DNA from: Chitinophagales bacterium
Lineage (GTDB): Bacteria > Bacteroidota > Bacteroidia > Chitinophagales > Chitinophagaceae
Length of the DNA stretch: 64,000 nucleotides
Assembly: GCA_030832085.1 (NCBI GenBank)
Contig: JAURJU010000064.1
Coordinates: 1 to 64,000 of the forward strand
Direction of reading: 5' to 3'
The notes below the pieces were generated by a model. That model was given only the letters and a program-made list of their open reading frames with translations, had not been told where the DNA came from and ran no database searches. The position numbers were made by a program, and so were the translations under genes. Of this stretch, positions 29,575-36,382 are shown piece by piece. The first letter of the stretch is position 1; each line of letters starts with the position of its first letter.

Positions 29575-30264
29575 ATGCTTCCTCCAAGGATATACAACAT
29601 ACAAGATTGTGCCATCACCATTGAGTTCTCCCAGGAAATCAATGAGGCAACAAACATGCGCGTCATTGCCTTGCAGCATGCCATTGAGTCCAGTCCCATC
29701 AAGGGTTTCATTGAGGCGGTACCTGCATATGGCAGCTTGACGGTATATTTCACTGAAGAGGTTTCTGTGGCAGCAGTTCGTTCTTGGCTTTCCAAATGGA
29801 TTGACGATGTTCCCAACAACAATCATTCGATGCTCCCCATGGAACATAGCAAACAGGTTACCATACCTGTCTGCTATGACACTTTGCTCGGCCTGGATCT
29901 TCCATGGGTTGCAGACCACTTGAACATGTCCATGGAAAACATCATTGCATTGCATGCTTCCATAGTATACCGGGTTTACATGATTGGCTTTGTTCCGGGA
30001 TTTCCTTATTTGGGAACATTGCCCAATGCCTTGGAGGTGCCCAGAAAACAAACCCCTTCCATGAAAACTCCTGCAGGAAGCGTGGCCATCGCTGGAAAAC
30101 AAACAGGAATATATCCGGCTGAAGTGCCCGGCGGTTGGCAAGTGATTGGAAGAACACCCCTGAAGATGTTCGATCCATCTGCATCACCCTGCAGTTTTTT
30201 GAATGCCGGAGACACGGTTCAATTCAAGCCCATCACCATGGAAGCATTCAACCAATATTCATGA
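29575..30264 (+). CDS. pxpB: 5-oxoprolinase subunit PxpB (KipI family)
   Basis: 229 residues matching the KipI / allophanate hydrolase subunit 1 family, now known as a subunit of the prokaryotic ATP-dependent 5-oxoprolinase PxpABC, which opens pyroglutamate to glutamate. Typical blocks: IYNIQDCAITIEFSQEI at the N-terminus, IPVCYD, and GFVPGFPYLGTLP followed by KQTPSMKTPAGSVAIAGKQTGIYP. It is cytoplasmic. The stop overlaps the pxpC start (ATGA at 30261-30264). It lies 32 bases after mqnC, so the three genes may share a transcript. Confidence 0.92.
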   Translation: MLPPRIYNIQDCAITIEFSQEINEATNMRVIALQHAIESSPIKGFIEAVPAYGSLTVYFTEEVSVAAVRSWLSKWIDDVPNNNHSMLPMEHSKQVTIPVCYDTLLGLDLPWVADHLNMSMENIIALHASIVYRVYMIGFVPGFPYLGTLPNALEVPRKQTPSMKTPAGSVAIAGKQTGIYPAEVPGGWQVIGRTPLKMFDPSASPCSFLNAGDTVQFKPITMEAFNQYS

Positions 30265-31241
30265 GCATCACCATCCTCAAACCCGGCATGATGAGCAGTG
30301 TCCAAGACCTTGGCAGGTGGGGCTCCCAGCAGTTTGGTGTTCCCATCGGTGGTGCAATGGACAAGGTTTCTGCAACAATGGCCAATCTCATTTGTGGCAA
30401 TGATGAAAATGAGGCAACGGTTGAAATGACCTTGCATGGCACGTCCTTCATGTTCAACGAAGCAGCCTTTTGTGCAATTGTGGGTGGCGGCTGTCAAGCA
30501 TTTGCAGGCGATGTGGCACTTCCCTTCAATCGATTGCTTTGGATTCCTGCCTTCAGCACCATCAGCACAATTGCAAGTGCGCAGGGTTGCAGGTCATATC
30601 TTGCAGTCAGTGGTGGATTCAACATTAAAAAAGTCATGGGAAGCGCATCAACCTATGTGCCTTCTGGGATTGGAGGCATACATGGAAGGACCCTGGTTGG
30701 TGGAGACCTGTTACCCTTCAAGCGTGAACAGCATGTGCAAGCCGCGTTAACTTTAAAAATGCTTCCCAGCGGAATAGGCATCTCCCACTGGCATACTGCA
30801 AATCGAATTCCAGCTTTACCAGGTGTTACAACAGTACACGCCATCGAAGGGCCTGAGTTTGATCGCTTCCAGGTCAAAGCGCAAAAAAATATTTTCAGCT
30901 CCGTGCTCACCATTTCATCCCGTTCCAACAGGATGGGGTATCGGCTGGATGGAAATAAATTTACACTCGAACAAAAATTCGAAATGGTCTCAACCCCTGT
31001 AACGGCAGGCATTGTGCAAGTTACACACGAAGGCGACCCCATCATCCTGATGGCAGATGCACAAACCACTGGAGGATATCCACGCATTGCAAGGGTCTGT
31101 ACTGCAGATATCCCATTGCTGGCACAAATGCGACCAGGGCAAATGATTCAGTTCAGTGCAATTGGGGAAGAGGAAAGCCTGCTTCGTTACAAGAAAATCC
31201 TTGAAGGCTTGATGATGTTGAAAACAGGATTGAAAAGTTGA
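30261..31241 (+). CDS. pxpC: 5-oxoprolinase subunit PxpC (KipA, biotin-dependent carboxyltransferase family)
   Basis: 326 residues from the ATG at 30261, which overlaps the pxpB stop; a longer frame from 30135 inside pxpB is not credible. The start ILKPGMMSSVQDLGRWG and the GVPIGGAMD segment identify the KipA / allophanate hydrolase subunit 2 family. A later GPEFDRF, SSRSNRMGYRLDG and MADAQTTGGYPRI complete the family pattern. With PxpB and PxpA it forms the 5-oxoprolinase. Unlike the compact operons known elsewhere, pxpA here lies 3.2 kb further on. Confidence 0.93.
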   Translation: MSITILKPGMMSSVQDLGRWGSQQFGVPIGGAMDKVSATMANLICGNDENEATVEMTLHGTSFMFNEAAFCAIVGGGCQAFAGDVALPFNRLLWIPAFSTISTIASAQGCRSYLAVSGGFNIKKVMGSASTYVPSGIGGIHGRTLVGGDLLPFKREQHVQAALTLKMLPSGIGISHWHTANRIPALPGVTTVHAIEGPEFDRFQVKAQKNIFSSVLTISSRSNRMGYRLDGNKFTLEQKFEMVSTPVTAGIVQVTHEGDPIILMADAQTTGGYPRIARVCTADIPLLAQMRPGQMIQFSAIGEEESLLRYKKILEGLMMLKTGLKS

Positions 31242-31314: not shown

Positions 31315-32031
31315 TTATTTCGCCTCTTCCCTGATATACTTTGCCCTTTCCCTTGAGTCTGGATGTGTGCTGATCCAGGAAAGGTTGCCCAATGCACCAT
31401 CTTTTTCCCCAAGACGATACAGAAAATCTGCAAAGCCGTTTGCACTGATGCCCGTTTTTTTGAGGTACTCAACGGCTTTCACATCAGCATCTTTCTCAAG
31501 TTTTCTGTCATAGGCGGTGGATGACAACATGCCCAATACCTGTTTGATGGCCTCGCCTCCTGCCTCTCCGGTCGTGAGGTTGATCAAGACGGTATAGCCC
31601 AATTGCTTGAGCAATTTTTTCATGACATGTGACAGTTCCATGTGTGCAATTTCATGTGCCAGCACACCGCTGAGTTCATCATTGTTTTTTACTGCATTGA
31701 TCAACCCGGTATGCACCACCAGATGGTTGTCGGGCATCGCGAATGCGTTGACTTCATTGTCGCCCATGATATGCACTTTGATTTTTTTTCTGTTGATGCC
31801 ATTGCTTTTGCACAATGCAGTAACCAAACTGTCTACGCGGTTGTATTCGCTTCCCGCTTCAACAGATTGCTCCTTCATCCCCTCCCATACGATATCACCA
31901 ACTTTTTTCTCCAATGCATCCGACATTTTTTCAATGCGAAACAACTTCATCCAATCCACACGGCTGACCAGCAGGTACACGCCCGTGATCAGGAGCAGGA
32001 GAACAATTGCCTGTACAAGTGTTTTTTTCAT
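31315..32031 (-). CDS. M48 family zinc metallopeptidase, membrane-anchored
   Basis: From the ATG at 32031 the protein has 238 residues with one N-terminal membrane helix (about 4-22). The zinc motif HEIAHMELSH follows LSGVLA, and the third ligand region is ADVKAVEYL. The C-terminal STHPDSRERAKYI is typical of the BepA/Oma1-like branch of M48, which degrades misfolded membrane or periplasmic proteins. The frame is open upstream to 32085, but that start lacks the clean anchor. It begins one base after the DUF4870-like gene ends, as the last gene of a four-gene overlapping unit. Confidence 0.9.
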   Translation of the reverse strand: MKKTLVQAIVLLLLITGVYLLVSRVDWMKLFRIEKMSDALEKKVGDIVWEGMKEQSVEAGSEYNRVDSLVTALCKSNGINRKKIKVHIMGDNEVNAFAMPDNHLVVHTGLINAVKNNDELSGVLAHEIAHMELSHVMKKLLKQLGYTVLINLTTGEAGGEAIKQVLGMLSSTAYDRKLEKDADVKAVEYLKKTGISANGFADFLYRLGEKDGALGNLSWISTHPDSRERAKYIREEAK

Positions 32032-32032
32032 A

Positions 32033-32467
32033 TCAGGGTTTGCACATGATTTGGGTGAGAGGACCATAAAAATACCATGAAACATGCATGCCTTTTCTGG
32101 TTTTGATGGCAGCTGAAATGGTCATGGCCAATTCAAGAACATTGAAAACAAAAACAGTTATGATATAGGCCAGGTAAGGATTAGAAACATGTTCATCTTC
32201 CATGACCAAAACCGACACCGTCCACCAGAATCCAGTGCTGTTTACAATGAAAAGGCTGAACTGCGAGAGCAATGCCTGTGTGCAATGCCACCTGACAAAA
32301 TATCCCGACTTTCTGTTGGCAATATAAAATAGCAGTGTGGCCAGCAAATTGATGATGGGCAATGGAAATCCAACCATGATGGCGACGAGCGACATCAGGT
32401 AGCTGTTCGAAGCCTTCTCTGCTTCCGCTTCTTCAGGGTGATATGGAAATGTTGAGGCCATGTTCAT
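32033..32467 (-). CDS. DUF4870-like small membrane protein
   Basis: 144 residues from the ATG at 32467, which overlaps the stop of the DUF2752 gene (ATGA). After an acidic N-terminus come three or four hydrophobic helices: about 23-48, 66-84, and 100-123. A charged YIANRKSGYFVRWHCTQALLSQ segment between the first two helices resembles the DUF4870 pattern, where a conserved loop precedes a helix with Gln/Asn. No function is known. The overlap with neighbours on both sides indicates tight co-expression with DUF2752 and the M48 peptidase. Confidence 0.65.
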   Translation of the reverse strand: MNMASTFPYHPEEAEAEKASNSYLMSLVAIMVGFPLPIINLLATLLFYIANRKSGYFVRWHCTQALLSQFSLFIVNSTGFWWTVSVLVMEDEHVSNPYLAYIITVFVFNVLELAMTISAAIKTRKGMHVSWYFYGPLTQIMCKP

Positions 32468-32877
32468 ACACCTTTGTAAATGTTCCAGCACCAATTGATC
32501 AGGATCAGGAACACCAAGGGCCAGGCCATCTTTTTTTGAATGATGTTCCTTTCAATGGTTGCATAAAAACCATGAAAGCTATTTTTCCCGAGTACAAGAT
32601 CGTAGACCAACCAAAATGGAAAGATGATCAATGCAAGCAGCAGAAAAAACCCCAAGGGATTCCACAAAAAACCCTGCAGAAAGTTTCCATGGAGGAATGC
32701 AAGCATTGACCTTGTTGCACCACAGGATGGACAGGGAAGTCCTGTTGCCTTTTTGAACAAGCAAACGGGGCCAACCCATCCCAACAACCTGTCGTCCAAA
32801 TGCATCATGAGCCAGGAATATCCTGCTGCACAAAAAAGCAGTATCAACAGATAGAGGCTTTTTCTACTGATTCCCAT
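32464..32877 (-). CDS. DUF2752 domain membrane protein
   Basis: 137 residues from the ATG at 32877, which overlaps the TM2 gene stop. The DUF2752 signature is clear: FKKATGLPCPSCGATRSMLAFLHGN after the first helix, with a Cys-x2-Cys-Gly pair and the conserved Arg. Two or three further helices follow. The family's role is unknown; the Cys pair could bind metal or form a disulfide. It often neighbours TM2-domain genes, as here. Confidence 0.88.
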   Translation of the reverse strand: MGISRKSLYLLILLFCAAGYSWLMMHLDDRLLGWVGPVCLFKKATGLPCPSCGATRSMLAFLHGNFLQGFLWNPLGFFLLLALIIFPFWLVYDLVLGKNSFHGFYATIERNIIQKKMAWPLVFLILINWCWNIYKGV

Positions 32878-33215
32878 CAATACAACAACTGCTGAAATTT
32901 GGCAAAATTTTTCTCTCTGGTTGCACCCATGATCAGGAACAAATCTACCAGCGCCCAAATGCCAAGTCCTCCGCAGGTCAGTAATTTTCCGATACCAAGT
33001 CCGGTATCACCAATCATGAAACGATCAATGCCCAACGCTCCCGCAAGGATTGAAACAATGATACTGGTCGTGGGGTCCTTGAACTGTAGGGTTTGGACCA
33101 ATGACCATTTTGAGTCATCCATGGCAAGCAACTGCTCCCTGATGTAGATCAATTGGTTGCTTTCAAAAAACTTTCCATTGCTTAAAATAAACATGTCCAC
33201 CTTGTTCGAATCCAT
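32877..33215 (-). CDS. TM2 domain-containing protein
   Basis: 112 residues from the ATG at 33215. A soluble N-terminal half (about 1-50) is followed by the TM2 hairpin: two hydrophobic segments joined by a short turn, with the characteristic LAGALGIDRFMIGDTGLGIGK block and LVDLF. A TTG 12 codons upstream (33251) is an alternative start. Function is unknown; TM2 proteins often sit in small membrane-protein operons. Its stop overlaps the DUF2752 start. Confidence 0.85.
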   Translation of the reverse strand: MDSNKVDMFILSNGKFFESNQLIYIREQLLAMDDSKWSLVQTLQFKDPTTSIIVSILAGALGIDRFMIGDTGLGIGKLLTCGGLGIWALVDLFLIMGATREKNFAKFQQLLY

Positions 33216-33304
33216 TTGTTTCGTTATTTGTATTGTATGATGTTTGTTCAACCTCCCAGCCTTCGGTTTACCAACATGAGGTTGGCTGGCTAGTTAAGCC
33301 TTTG

Positions 33305-34411
33305 CTATGCCCTCGTCAACTTAATTGGTGTCGTCCTGTCTGCATTCCACTGACACACATAGATGCTTTGGTCATCATCGATACAAACATCGTGTCCGTG
33401 TTTGAAAACCCTTGATTCGTGCTGGAATGTTTGTTGTAAAATTCCGTTTTTAAATACAGGAGCCGTGCCACCCGGGCTGGCCAATACTTTGTAATTGGTA
33501 TCCAGGATGGTAAGGAATCCTGTTGCGTTTTGCTTTTTGCCTTCCGCGTCTTTTGACCAACATACCCCTGCATAAAGGTGCTGCCCGTGAATCACAGGCC
33601 TGCATACATACATACCGGGCGTATCAATGCGCTTGATGAATTTGCCATCCAGCGTAAACACCTTGAAACAACATTCCTCCCTTGAAGTGCAAATCAAAAC
33701 AGGATTGTTTTTGTCTCGGTTGTCCACCACAACACCATGCGCACAATAGAGGTTGTGTTCTTTGTTTTCGTTGTTGCGTCCGCCAAACTTCCTGATGAAC
33801 CTGCCCCTGCTGTCAAATTGGATGATATAATCAGATCCGTATCCATCGGCCACATAAATATCTCCATTGGGAGCAACTGCAGTTTCTGTTGGACGGTATG
33901 CTTCCTCATCCTTGTAGGCTCCGATGGTATGGGGCTGTGCCAGTGAAAAAACAATCCTTCCCTTGAGGTCAGTCTTTACGACATTTCCAGGCTGTGCTTT
34001 TGATTTGCCAGAAAGATCCTTGTAAAAACCATTGTCCACAATCAATAGAAAATCCTCATCGTTTTCCTTGCTGATGGTAAGCCCATGCCCTGCAGGGAAT
34101 GAGGTTCCCCATGCATCCAGCAACTGACCCGACTTGTCAAAAACAAGGATGTTGTTGTGGATGTCATCGCCAATCATGATGAGACGACCCTTGCTGTCCT
34201 GTACCATTTCATGGCAGTTGATTACCGGGTGGGTGCTGGCACTGATTTTGGCCCATCCCTTGTCCACCTTGTACGTGAATCCATTGTGTCCGATGATCAA
34301 CTCTTCGGGTTGCCTGTTCTTGTCAACAATAGAAAAGGCAAATGACTTACTGGCCAGCAATCCTGCGGATGCAAATGCTGTTGACCTGAGGAAGGTTCTT
34401 CTATTTTTCAT
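33305..34411 (-). CDS. Exported NHL/six-bladed beta-propeller protein
   Basis: 368 residues with a twin-arginine-like signal (MKNRRTFLRSTAFASAGLLAS). The body is a series of NHL-type blades: MIGDDIHNNILVFDKSGQLLDAWG, AVAPNGDIYVADGYGSDYIIQFD, HGVVVDNRDKN and DVCIDDDQSIYVCQWN. This resembles the peptidyl-alpha-hydroxyglycine lyase-like branch of NHL proteins, but catalytic residues cannot be assigned by eye. Exported propellers of this kind often bind sugars or peptides. It diverges from pxpA by 52 bases and is separated from the TM2 gene by about 90 bases. Confidence 0.8.
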   Translation of the reverse strand: MKNRRTFLRSTAFASAGLLASKSFAFSIVDKNRQPEELIIGHNGFTYKVDKGWAKISASTHPVINCHEMVQDSKGRLIMIGDDIHNNILVFDKSGQLLDAWGTSFPAGHGLTISKENDEDFLLIVDNGFYKDLSGKSKAQPGNVVKTDLKGRIVFSLAQPHTIGAYKDEEAYRPTETAVAPNGDIYVADGYGSDYIIQFDSRGRFIRKFGGRNNENKEHNLYCAHGVVVDNRDKNNPVLICTSREECCFKVFTLDGKFIKRIDTPGMYVCRPVIHGQHLYAGVCWSKDAEGKKQNATGFLTILDTNYKVLASPGGTAPVFKNGILQQTFQHESRVFKHGHDVCIDDDQSIYVCQWNADRTTPIKLTRA

Positions 34412-34463: not shown

Positions 34464-35204
34464 ATGCTTGGGAAAATTGACCTCAACTGCGATATGGGCG
34501 AAGGCTTTGCAAATGATGCACTGATCATGCCCTTGATCAGTTCAGCCAACATTGCCTGTGGATTTCATGCCGGTGGAGGAGCGCTGATGCACCAAACCAT
34601 TCGCCTGGCCATGCAGCACCATGTTGCCATCGGCGCACATCCTTCCTTCAACGACCGGGAAGGCTTTGGGAGAAGAATATTACAATTGCCGACCACAGCA
34701 ATTCATAGGATGGTCAGCGATCAAATCGACCTGATGATGAAAGCAACTGCAGCTGAAGGGGGAAAACTTTCTCATGTCAAGCCACATGGTGCACTCTACA
34801 ACATGGCGGCAAACGAACTGCCGGTGGCCGATGCCATTTCCAGGGCAATACAAGAGATCGATGATACCCTGATTGTTTACGGATTGCCAGATAGTGCCTC
34901 CGAATCATCCGCAAAAGCACACGGGTTGCGGTTTTACAAAGAAGTTTTTTCTGACAGGACTTATACAAATGAAGGAAAACTGACACCACGCGAGGAACCC
35001 CATGCCATGATTGAAACAGCTGTGCAAAGCCTTGAGCAGGTCCTGAAGGTCATCCTCCACGAAACCATAAAGTCCACCGGCGGACATGAAATTTCAGTGA
35101 AGGCAGATACCATTTGCATCCATGGGGATGGAGAACATGCCCTGGCATTTGCGCAGCTGATCAATACAACCCTGGTTAAACATGGCATAGCCATCAAACA
35201 ATGA
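34464..35204 (+). CDS. pxpA: 5-oxoprolinase subunit PxpA (LamB/YcsF family)
   Basis: 246 residues, cytoplasmic. The N-terminus IDLNCDMGEGFAND, then SSANIACGFHAGGG and AIGAHPSFNDREGFGRR, are LamB/YcsF hallmarks; the His and Asp residues form the putative active site of the 5-oxoprolinase catalytic subunit. Later blocks HVKPHGALYN and ADTICIHGDGEHA also fit. The stop overlaps the ATG of the Nramp-fold transporter. pxpB and pxpC lie upstream on the same strand, beyond a five-gene block on the other strand. Confidence 0.94.
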   Translation: MLGKIDLNCDMGEGFANDALIMPLISSANIACGFHAGGGALMHQTIRLAMQHHVAIGAHPSFNDREGFGRRILQLPTTAIHRMVSDQIDLMMKATAAEGGKLSHVKPHGALYNMAANELPVADAISRAIQEIDDTLIVYGLPDSASESSAKAHGLRFYKEVFSDRTYTNEGKLTPREEPHAMIETAVQSLEQVLKVILHETIKSTGGHEISVKADTICIHGDGEHALAFAQLINTTLVKHGIAIKQ

Positions 35205-36382
35205 AAACAAAACTGTCACGGCTCAGCCATTCACCCGTCATCGCCGCAGCCTTTCTGATGGCCACTTCAGCAATTGGGCCAGGCTTTCTCACCCAAACCG
35301 CTGTTTTCACCAATACCTTGCTGGCAAGCTTTGGCTTCGTGATCCTGATTTCAATCATTTTGGACATCGGTGCACAAATGAACATCTGGAAAATACTTGG
35401 TGCATCCGGATTGCATGCGCAGGAACTGGCCAACAAAGTCTTTCCCGGTGCAGGCTACTTTCTCACCCTCCTGATTGTGGTGGGAGGGCTGGCATTCAAT
35501 ACTGGAAATCTTGCAGGGGCAGGTCTGGGGCTGAATGTACTCACTGGTTGGCGTACAGAAACAGGAGCGGTAACCAGTGCAGCAATCGCTATCCTGATTT
35601 TTGTCAACAAGCAGTCGTTAAAGTGGATGGACATGTTTGCAAAGGCATTGGGGCTGGCGATGATCCTCCTGACCCTTTACGTGGTCTTTGTGGCTGCTCC
35701 GCCCATCGGAGATGCCATCCACAAGACCTTTGTTCCAGACAATATTGATGTTATCGCCATCATCACCCTGGTGGGCGGTACTGTTGGCGGGTATATCAGT
35801 TTTGCAGGGGCCCATCGCCTGATTGACGCAGGCCTGACCGGACCAGCACATACCAGGGAGGTGAGCCGCTCCGCCGTCTCGGCCATCCTGCTGGCCTCTG
35901 TCATGCGGATACTCCTTTTCCTGGCTGCATTGGGCGTGGTCTCAAAAGGGCTGTCCCTGGACAGCAGCAATCCTGCTGCATCTGTTTTTCAGTTGGCGGC
36001 AGGAAGGGTTGGTTACATGATATTTGGAATCGTCATGTGGAGTGCAGCCATCACCTCTGTGGTGGGATCCGCCTACACTTCCATCTCTTTTTTTCGCTCC
36101 TTTCATCCAATCTTTGAAAAAAATGAAAAGCCGATGCTGGTGGGTTTTGTGCTGATTGCATTGCTGGTATTCATCACCATAGGAAAGCCCGTGAAAACAC
36201 TGGTCGTGGTGGGCGCCTTGAACGGATGCATCCTCCCGGTGGCGCTGGGTCTGATCCTGCTGGCAGCATCCAACAAAAAAATAGTAGGGGAGTATAAGCA
36301 TCCCCTGTTCCTGAAAATATTTGGTCTTGTTGTAGTGCTCGCCACCTTGTACCTCAGTGTAAAAACAATCTCCGGTCTCTGA
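35201..36382 (+). CDS. Nramp-fold transporter lacking the canonical metal-site motifs
   Basis: 393 residues with about eleven membrane helices. The GPGFL at 26-30 in helix 1, and the helix spacing, place it in the Nramp family. Two hallmarks of metal transporters are absent. After GPGFL the DPGN motif is replaced by TQTAVFTN. In helix 6 the MPHN motif is replaced by VGGTVGGYISFAGAH. It therefore probably does not carry manganese or iron as MntH does. Its ATG overlaps the pxpA stop, and in Bacillus subtilis an Nramp homolog (ycsG) also sits beside the pxp genes. A substrate linked to 5-oxoproline is inferred from that. Confidence 0.85.
   Translation: MKTKLSRLSHSPVIAAAFLMATSAIGPGFLTQTAVFTNTLLASFGFVILISIILDIGAQMNIWKILGASGLHAQELANKVFPGAGYFLTLLIVVGGLAFNTGNLAGAGLGLNVLTGWRTETGAVTSAAIAILIFVNKQSLKWMDMFAKALGLAMILLTLYVVFVAAPPIGDAIHKTFVPDNIDVIAIITLVGGTVGGYISFAGAHRLIDAGLTGPAHTREVSRSAVSAILLASVMRILLFLAALGVVSKGLSLDSSNPAASVFQLAAGRVGYMIFGIVMWSAAITSVVGSAYTSISFFRSFHPIFEKNEKPMLVGFVLIALLVFITIGKPVKTLVVVGALNGCILPVALGLILLAASNKKIVGEYKHPLFLKIFGLVVVLATLYLSVKTISGL

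Follow-up and report, generated by a model that had tools for sequence, protein, structure and literature searches.

What does an Nramp-fold protein carry when its gene overlaps that of a 5-oxoprolinase subunit? The question is raised by a stretch of 64,000 nucleotides from a Chitinophagales bacterium (assembly GCA_030832085.1, contig JAURJU010000064.1), the whole of which is called the window here. A preliminary description had noted an Nramp-fold ORF with an ATG overlapping the stop codon of pxpA. The ORF was found exactly as described and gave 87 bits with the Pfam model PF01566 (cut-off 29.8), and the overlap was also found (Table 1); an NCBIfam search at an E value of 0.001 matched no model. 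The same 4-bp overlap was present in the closest named relatives among the best 80 of at least 595, namely a Chitinophagaceae MAG (L045, 88% identity) and the unclassified L046 (89%), but was scored at just 6 of the 56 loci where it could be measured, a script having picked the start codons. Judging from the overlap, pxpT may be translationally coupled to pxpA.

Table 1 Features of the pxp region in the window.
Feature	Position	Strand	Remarks
pxpB, 5-oxoprolinase subunit B	29575..30264	+	
pxpC, 5-oxoprolinase subunit C	30261..31241	+	ATGA overlap with pxpB; end 3.2 kb 5' of pxpA
Four ORFs between pxpC and the NHL gene	31315..33251	-	
NHL-repeat protein gene	33305..34411	-	Nearest ORF to pxpA
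pxpA, 5-oxoprolinase subunit A (LamB/YcsF)	34464..35204	+	
ATGA overlap, pxpA stop (TGA) and pxpT start (ATG)	35201..35204	+	
pxpT, carrier of the PxpT/YcsG clade by sequence, Nramp (PF01566) fold	35201..36382	+	393 aa
Helix 1, GPGF (residues 26-29) at the DPGN columns	35276..35287	+	G and F instead of the ligands D and N
Helix 3, N100 to N103	35498..35509	+	MntH has D109 to E112
Helix 6, GGYI (residues 196-199) at the MPHN columns	35786..35797	+	
H205 R206, helix 6b, clade-specific	35813..35818	+	H in 108/108 and R in 107/108 rows; candidate carboxylate contact

The gene order in the window is pxpB-pxpC, five ORFs on the opposite strand, and then pxpA-pxpT. The NHL-repeat protein has RRTFLR near its start and was found in the same position in the close relatives L045 and L047-L050 with 78-93% identity; the identity of PxpA there was 49-69%. 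Three of the other four opposite-strand ORFs are small, and one of the four matched an M48-type peptidase below the NCBIfam cut-offs. In L047-L050, pxpC directly adjoins the NHL gene and these four ORFs are missing. The same genome also encodes a canonical MntH, which scored 460 bits, and a third protein of Nramp type (L002, 254 bits), in which helix 1 carries DPSG and helix 6 carries SPYL.

The AF2 model of the window protein was built on 70 sequences and had a pLDDT of 90.4 and a pTM of 0.88. In the model, residues 24-26 form the break in helix 1, which stops at the opening G of GPGF, and the break in helix 6 falls on residue 196, where GGYI starts; this matches the register of the alignment described below. 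Broken helices 1 and 6 are those of the LeuT fold of the APC superfamily, and AdiC, ApcT, and others matched the model. The best Foldseek match was the Bacillus subtilis YcsG chain 9a52_A, which comes from an integrative model and not from an experimental map (60% identity, TM 0.94; 60-61% identity with VIA-align included), followed by EleNRMT (TM 0.84) and DraNramp (TM 0.83). The VIA-align Z values were 62.2 (9a52 YcsG chain), 43.7 (best DraNramp entry), and 43.1 (best EleNRMT entry). Nramp structures were recovered by both profile search and fold search; with phmmer, the window protein gave just two weak matches to PDB sequences, both of them DARPins.

Set A2 comprised 69 of the 80 named loci, without L110 and L112, for which no start was found, and without nine near-duplicates removed by hand. 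In the tree, 17 PxpT rows formed one group with support of 100/100. L064 of Bacillus tequilensis, a stand-in for B. subtilis YcsG, fell in the same clade; its locus differs from the window in that a DUF1445 gene follows the carrier and pxpB-pxpC lie downstream. On this evidence from sequence, the window protein belongs to the PxpT/YcsG clade.

A carrier of this kind was already reported in 2026 (PMC13274462). In Corynebacterium glutamicum, deletion of pxpT (cg1142) abolished growth on 5-oxoproline and was complemented, and growth on 5-oxo-L-proline as the sole carbon and nitrogen source needed the gene. Both the C. glutamicum protein and the window protein are of the Nramp family and encoded with pxp genes, which are arranged as pxpTABC in Corynebacterium; the former is placed via YcsG, for which PMC13274462 gives 50% identity. 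The window gene is a further PxpT. The same paper also cites Niehaus 2017 for a YcsG deletion that blocks 5-oxoproline use in B. subtilis, names the C. difficile homolog PxpG, and leaves metal transport by PxpT possible.

Subsequently, the metal-site columns were compared in an alignment of 108 PxpT rows (about 98 genes, without the duplicates L003/L004 and the split L041, and with L146-L155 as repeat genes), 26 MntH rows, 21 clade-2 rows, and 7 others. GPGF occupied the DPGN columns and GGYI the MPHN columns in 108/108 PxpT rows, an agreement that is partly by construction, since 80 of these rows came from a scan with GPGF- or GYI-containing patterns and a further 10 rows repeat genes already among those 80. 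All 26 MntH rows had DPGN and kept MPH. In E. coli MntH numbering, helix 1 of PxpT has D34 replaced by G and N37 by F with the P and G between them kept; these two changes, together with E112 to N, M209 to G, H211 to Y, and H216 to G, were found in 108/108 PxpT rows and 0/26 MntH rows, and the helix-3 position of D109 was N in 106/108. The six substitutions of the metal and proton site were also found in 21/21 rows of a later PxpT set, in which L206 and L211 are repeats and the broken pieces L226-L230 were left out. Among the rows found without any motif pattern, they were present in 39/39, and in total in 129/129 PxpT rows.

In the window protein, N100, N103, Y198, and G203 stand in place of D109 and E112 of helix 3 and H211 and H216 of helix 6, and GPGF stands where the NRMT proteins have the DxxG motif of helix 1 (as defined in PMC8806188). 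The fold is common to the window protein and the metal transporters of the MntH/Slc11 and NRMT types, whereas their DPGN-MPH and DxxG sites are missing from it. The absence of DPGN and MPHN claimed in the preliminary description was confirmed by the alignment. GPGFL, which it had regarded as a kept part of helix 1, fared differently: GPGF is present but is not a separate motif, as it occupies the DPGN columns itself. The same description had considered that the metal-site residues might lie at shifted positions; the alignment columns and the helix breaks of the AF2 model agree, so that the positions are present and substituted, not shifted. The shared changes D to G, E to N, and H to Y were rejected as a signature of 5-oxoproline; they also occur in L020 and L021, whose genes lie away from pxpA, and are therefore not specific to pxp linkage.

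These columns bear on a first alternative, in which PxpT would import a divalent metal (Mn) through a non-canonical site and provide the enzymes encoded next to it with Mn. Against it, Asp, Asn, Met, and His are missing from the canonical ligand positions throughout the PxpT rows, helix 3 likewise lacks its acid pair, and the metal-moving NRMT and NRAT clades are described as retaining the Asp of DxxG/DxxN (PMC8806188). Metal binding by PxpT at the canonical site appears unlikely from these residues, which do not overturn the published Mn measurements.

The linkage to pxp genes was examined in several phyla. In the fetched DNA of the best 80 of at least 595 relatives from the scan of named genomes, pxpA, B, or C was found for 76, and pxpA for 70. 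The four others were L077 and L094, which lie on short contigs or close to a contig end and have less than 1 kb of upstream DNA, and L093 and L115, with no pxp gene within 10 kb. Among 198 Bacteroidota genomes, PxpT was found in 8 and lay beside pxpA in 7. Canonical MntH (Nramp genes of at least 325 bits, with PF01566 matches listed from at least 227 bits) lay within 6 kb of pxpA in 0/68 cases in these genomes, 7 of the 68 being in pxpA-bearing genomes; it was also encoded in 7 of the 8 PxpT genomes, that of the window included. The adjacency of PxpT and pxpA is not due to chance (76/80 versus 0/68 for canonical MntH), and the latter count also speaks against the Mn importer.

PxpT was found in 19 of 199 Bacillota genomes as 20 pieces, 18 of which, in 17 genomes, lay within 1.5 kb of pxp genes; this count of loci includes the broken pieces L226-L230. 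Among 200 Pseudomonadota genomes it was found in 6, all of them with PxpT beside pxpA by coordinates and one of them the seed genome. As pxpA was found in 56 of the 200, but PxpT in just 6, other carriers must serve there. The suggested count of such neighbours across phyla thus gave pxp linkage in Bacteroidota, Bacillota, and Pseudomonadota. PxpT genes with no pxp neighbour in the DNA seen were also found, namely L039, L224, L225, and that of genome G190, and these count against the 5-oxoproline reading. In Ilyobacter, the 9 kb flanking L039 on each side are free of pxp genes, and this locus was retained in the alignment and the tree as a counter-example; in G190 (L006/L181), no pxpA was found in the genome. 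L006/L181 and Runella L115 are closely related PxpT copies, both without a pxp neighbour. In L226-L230 (Bacillota genomes G241, G419, G374, and G323), PxpT is truncated, in pieces, or has internal stops. As pxp genes still adjoin it, the carrier seems to be decaying there.

Most of the Bacteroidota matches about 25% identical to the window protein formed another group, clade 2, and taking them for MntH proved wrong. The metal columns of clade 2 hold GPGT and VPYN in 21/21 rows, and G100, Y104, G107, N108, G111, and G115 of helix 3 (L013 numbering) are invariant. The orphan Slc11 outgroup of Cellier is described by G-Y-G-N-G-G in helix 3 and V..Y in helix 6 (PMC10606218), and PMC9606685 describes its outgroup as lacking features needed for Mn and proton transport. 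Clade 2 has both patterns and no metal site; it appears to match the orphan outgroup, a match of motifs and not of the published sequences themselves. PxpT, about 25% identical to clade 2, has the helix-3 pattern in common with F for Y: G95, F99, and N103 were found in 108/108 rows and G102 in 107/108, and all four are missing in the 26 MntH rows. The window protein has the four Gly and N103, but F99 in place of Y, and G196 with Y198 in place of V..Y. It grouped apart from clade 2 at 100/100; in the AU test, neither PxpT and clade 2 as one clade (p 0.22) nor MntH and clade 2 as one (p 0.17) was rejected. In a larger tree, the clade-2 rows did not form a single group (3 changes).

Clade 2 is likewise found with pxp genes. 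At 520 bits or more it was present in 29 of the 198 Bacteroidota genomes, one copy being interrupted by an internal stop. Each of these 29 genomes also has pxpA, which lay within 6 kb of the clade-2 copy in 25. The corresponding count for more distant matches was 0/17. None of the 198 genomes had both PxpT and clade 2, and one or the other lay beside pxpA in 32 of the 47 pxpA-bearing genomes. A carrier and pxpA were found together in 36 genomes, the carrier alone in 1, pxpA alone in 11, and neither in 150 (Fisher p 1.4e-28, without correction for common descent). The order Nramp-pxpA-pxpB-pxpC was seen in all ten clade-2 regions picked for a nearby pxpA, and no pxp gene in three regions picked for having no pxpA nearby (L182-L184). 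Clade 2 was also found in 7 of 199 Bacillota genomes, with 6 copies within about 3.5 kb of pxp genes and four of these inside the operon, and in 3 of 200 Pseudomonadota genomes, where pxp genes accompany one copy, genes for HyuA and HyuB another, and neither set the third. Among viral contigs, a clade-2 scan yielded 105 pattern matches, none of them a relative.

On haloarchaeal plasmids, clade-2 proteins 47-50% identical to L014 were found among the 12 listed of 551 matching records, a total that will include ordinary MntH; five of the 12 regions were opened. In all five, genes for HyuA and HyuB (hydantoinase/oxoprolinase family) directly follow the clade-2 gene. The gene after these, in four of the five, is annotated as an Asp/Glu racemase (three) or a maleate isomerase (one), and Pfam placed one gene so annotated closest to arylmalonate decarboxylase. 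The five carriers have GPGT and the helix-3 pattern, with VG.Y where the others have VPY. In the tree, the haloarchaeal copies grouped with two pxp-linked Bacillota copies (99/98), and the HyuAB-linked Pseudomonadota copy paired with a pxp-linked copy (100/100). The carrier seems to have kept its place while the enzyme switched between two unrelated types that open cyclic amides. HyuAB is functionally broad and gave NCBIfam matches below the cut-off, so that a substrate common to the HyuAB- and pxp-linked carriers is a tentative proposal.

This parallel branch bears on a second alternative, in which PxpT would carry a relative of 5-oxoproline, such as D-5-oxoproline, a hydantoin, or another lactam, or would act mainly as an exporter relieving the build-up of 5-oxoproline. 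It fits with the best NCBIfam matches of HyuAB, which were caprolactamase subunits below the cut-off, and with a D-glutamate cyclase family gene (DUF1445/PF07286) that is frequent in the PxpT operons outside the window. The need for pxpT during growth of Corynebacterium on 5-oxo-L-proline as the only source of carbon and nitrogen (PMC13274462) instead indicates import of that compound, and we regard the second alternative as unlikely.

Membership of the PxpT clade also brings in proteins published as Mn importers. The A. baumannii locus L034 has the order LysR, Nramp, PxpA, D-Glu cyclase, PxpBC fusion, and biotin carboxylase, which matches the published mumR-mumTLUHC. The Nramp protein of this locus shares 45% identity with the window protein and has the same GPGF and GGYI; Pfam gave Nramp at 87.7 bits, a D-glutamate cyclase family protein, and a carboxyltransferase fusion of the PxpB-PxpC type, and the slot assigned to allophanate hydrolase showed no amidase domain. 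From this synteny, L034 presumably carries MumT, which is reported as an Mn importer (PMC5050338, where it is tied to urea carboxylase; PMC11796373). B. subtilis YcsG was renamed MntG as an Mn importer in PMC10448178, which doubts the earlier 5-oxoproline result on the ground that polar effects were not ruled out, and an efp study builds on this assignment (PMC13055313). The position of YcsG and, by synteny, of MumT in the PxpT clade is in conflict with the published role. As judged by titles and abstract openings, no literature tying MumT or the orphan outgroup to 5-oxoproline was found. The L034 record itself (NZ_CP064203.1) is labelled a plasmid and is chromosome-sized at 3.97 Mb.

From whole-cell ICP-MS and genetic interactions, YcsG and MumT were reported to raise cellular Mn (PMC10448178, PMC5050338). 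For YcsG/MntG, the published case includes Mn changes in overexpression strains, binding of MntR at PpxpA, and an mntH mntA ycsG triple mutant that could not be built (PMC10448178), with the efp study in the same line of work (PMC13055313); for mumT, the deletion gave Mn toxicity and ICP-MS phenotypes (PMC5050338, PMC11796373). Set against this are the residues and gene neighbours described above and the loss of growth on 5-oxoproline after pxpT deletion (PMC13274462), and we consider Mn import through a non-canonical site to be quite improbable.

A third alternative would reconcile the papers: the carrier might take up a metal-organic complex, Mn- or Mg-pyroglutamate, or both substrates together. 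Metal-chelate carriers are known elsewhere, and phenotypes on 5-oxoproline and on Mn have both been reported within one clade. No metal ligand set is visible in PxpT, though a chelate might need none; we rate this alternative as very improbable.

Taken together, these findings suggest that PxpT, the window protein, very probably imports 5-oxoproline. The preliminary description had proposed it as a possible uptake partner of PxpABC, and this idea gains support from three lines: the protein belongs to the YcsG clade, its metal ligands are gone, and related genes adjoin pxp genes in more than one phylum. Clade 2 offers a parallel, as it too lacks the metal site, is encoded with pxpABC or HyuAB, and has the helix-3 pattern in common with PxpT. 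For the Corynebacterium ortholog the idea is already in print on the basis of deletion and complementation (PMC13274462), and it is disputed by PMC10448178 and PMC5050338. As a 5-oxoproline importer, PxpT would be a LeuT-fold secondary carrier bringing in 5-oxoproline (pyroglutamate), which would then go to the PxpABC 5-oxoprolinase encoded by pxpA and pxpB-pxpC. With Asp and Met gone, the unwound segments of helix 1 (G-P-G) and helix 6 (G-G-Y) may leave space for a small organic anion. The anion would be held by backbone amides and by the invariant or nearly invariant polar residues Q32, T33, N103, Y198, H205, and R206, much as G-x-G motifs hold the substrate in APC amino-acid carriers.

If the 5-oxoproline reading is true, the name of divalent metal transporter misleads for the whole clade, the Mn importers of B. 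subtilis and A. baumannii included, and conclusions built on that name need to be re-tested with 5-oxoproline. A definite substrate can then also be proposed for the orphan Slc11 outgroup, and with it a possible cargo of the proteins ancestral to the metal transporters. A wider proposal is tentative and rather doubtful: both Nramp branches without a metal site might carry lactams of the 5-oxoproline type, paired with PxpABC or HyuAB, two ATP-dependent oxoprolinases that are unrelated to each other, metal-transporting Slc11/Nramp might have arisen within them, and the Mn phenotypes of MumT and MntG might be indirect.

PxpT also occurs on plasmids, where 168 records matched, 93 of them from Klebsiella; the annotation "NRAMP family divalent metal transporter" was given in 45 of the 60 listed among these 168. 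The Klebsiella plasmid locus L035 has the order GntR, pxpT, pxpA, DUF1445, PxpBC fusion, and biotin carboxylase, and genes for IS1- and IS3-type transposases lie near it.
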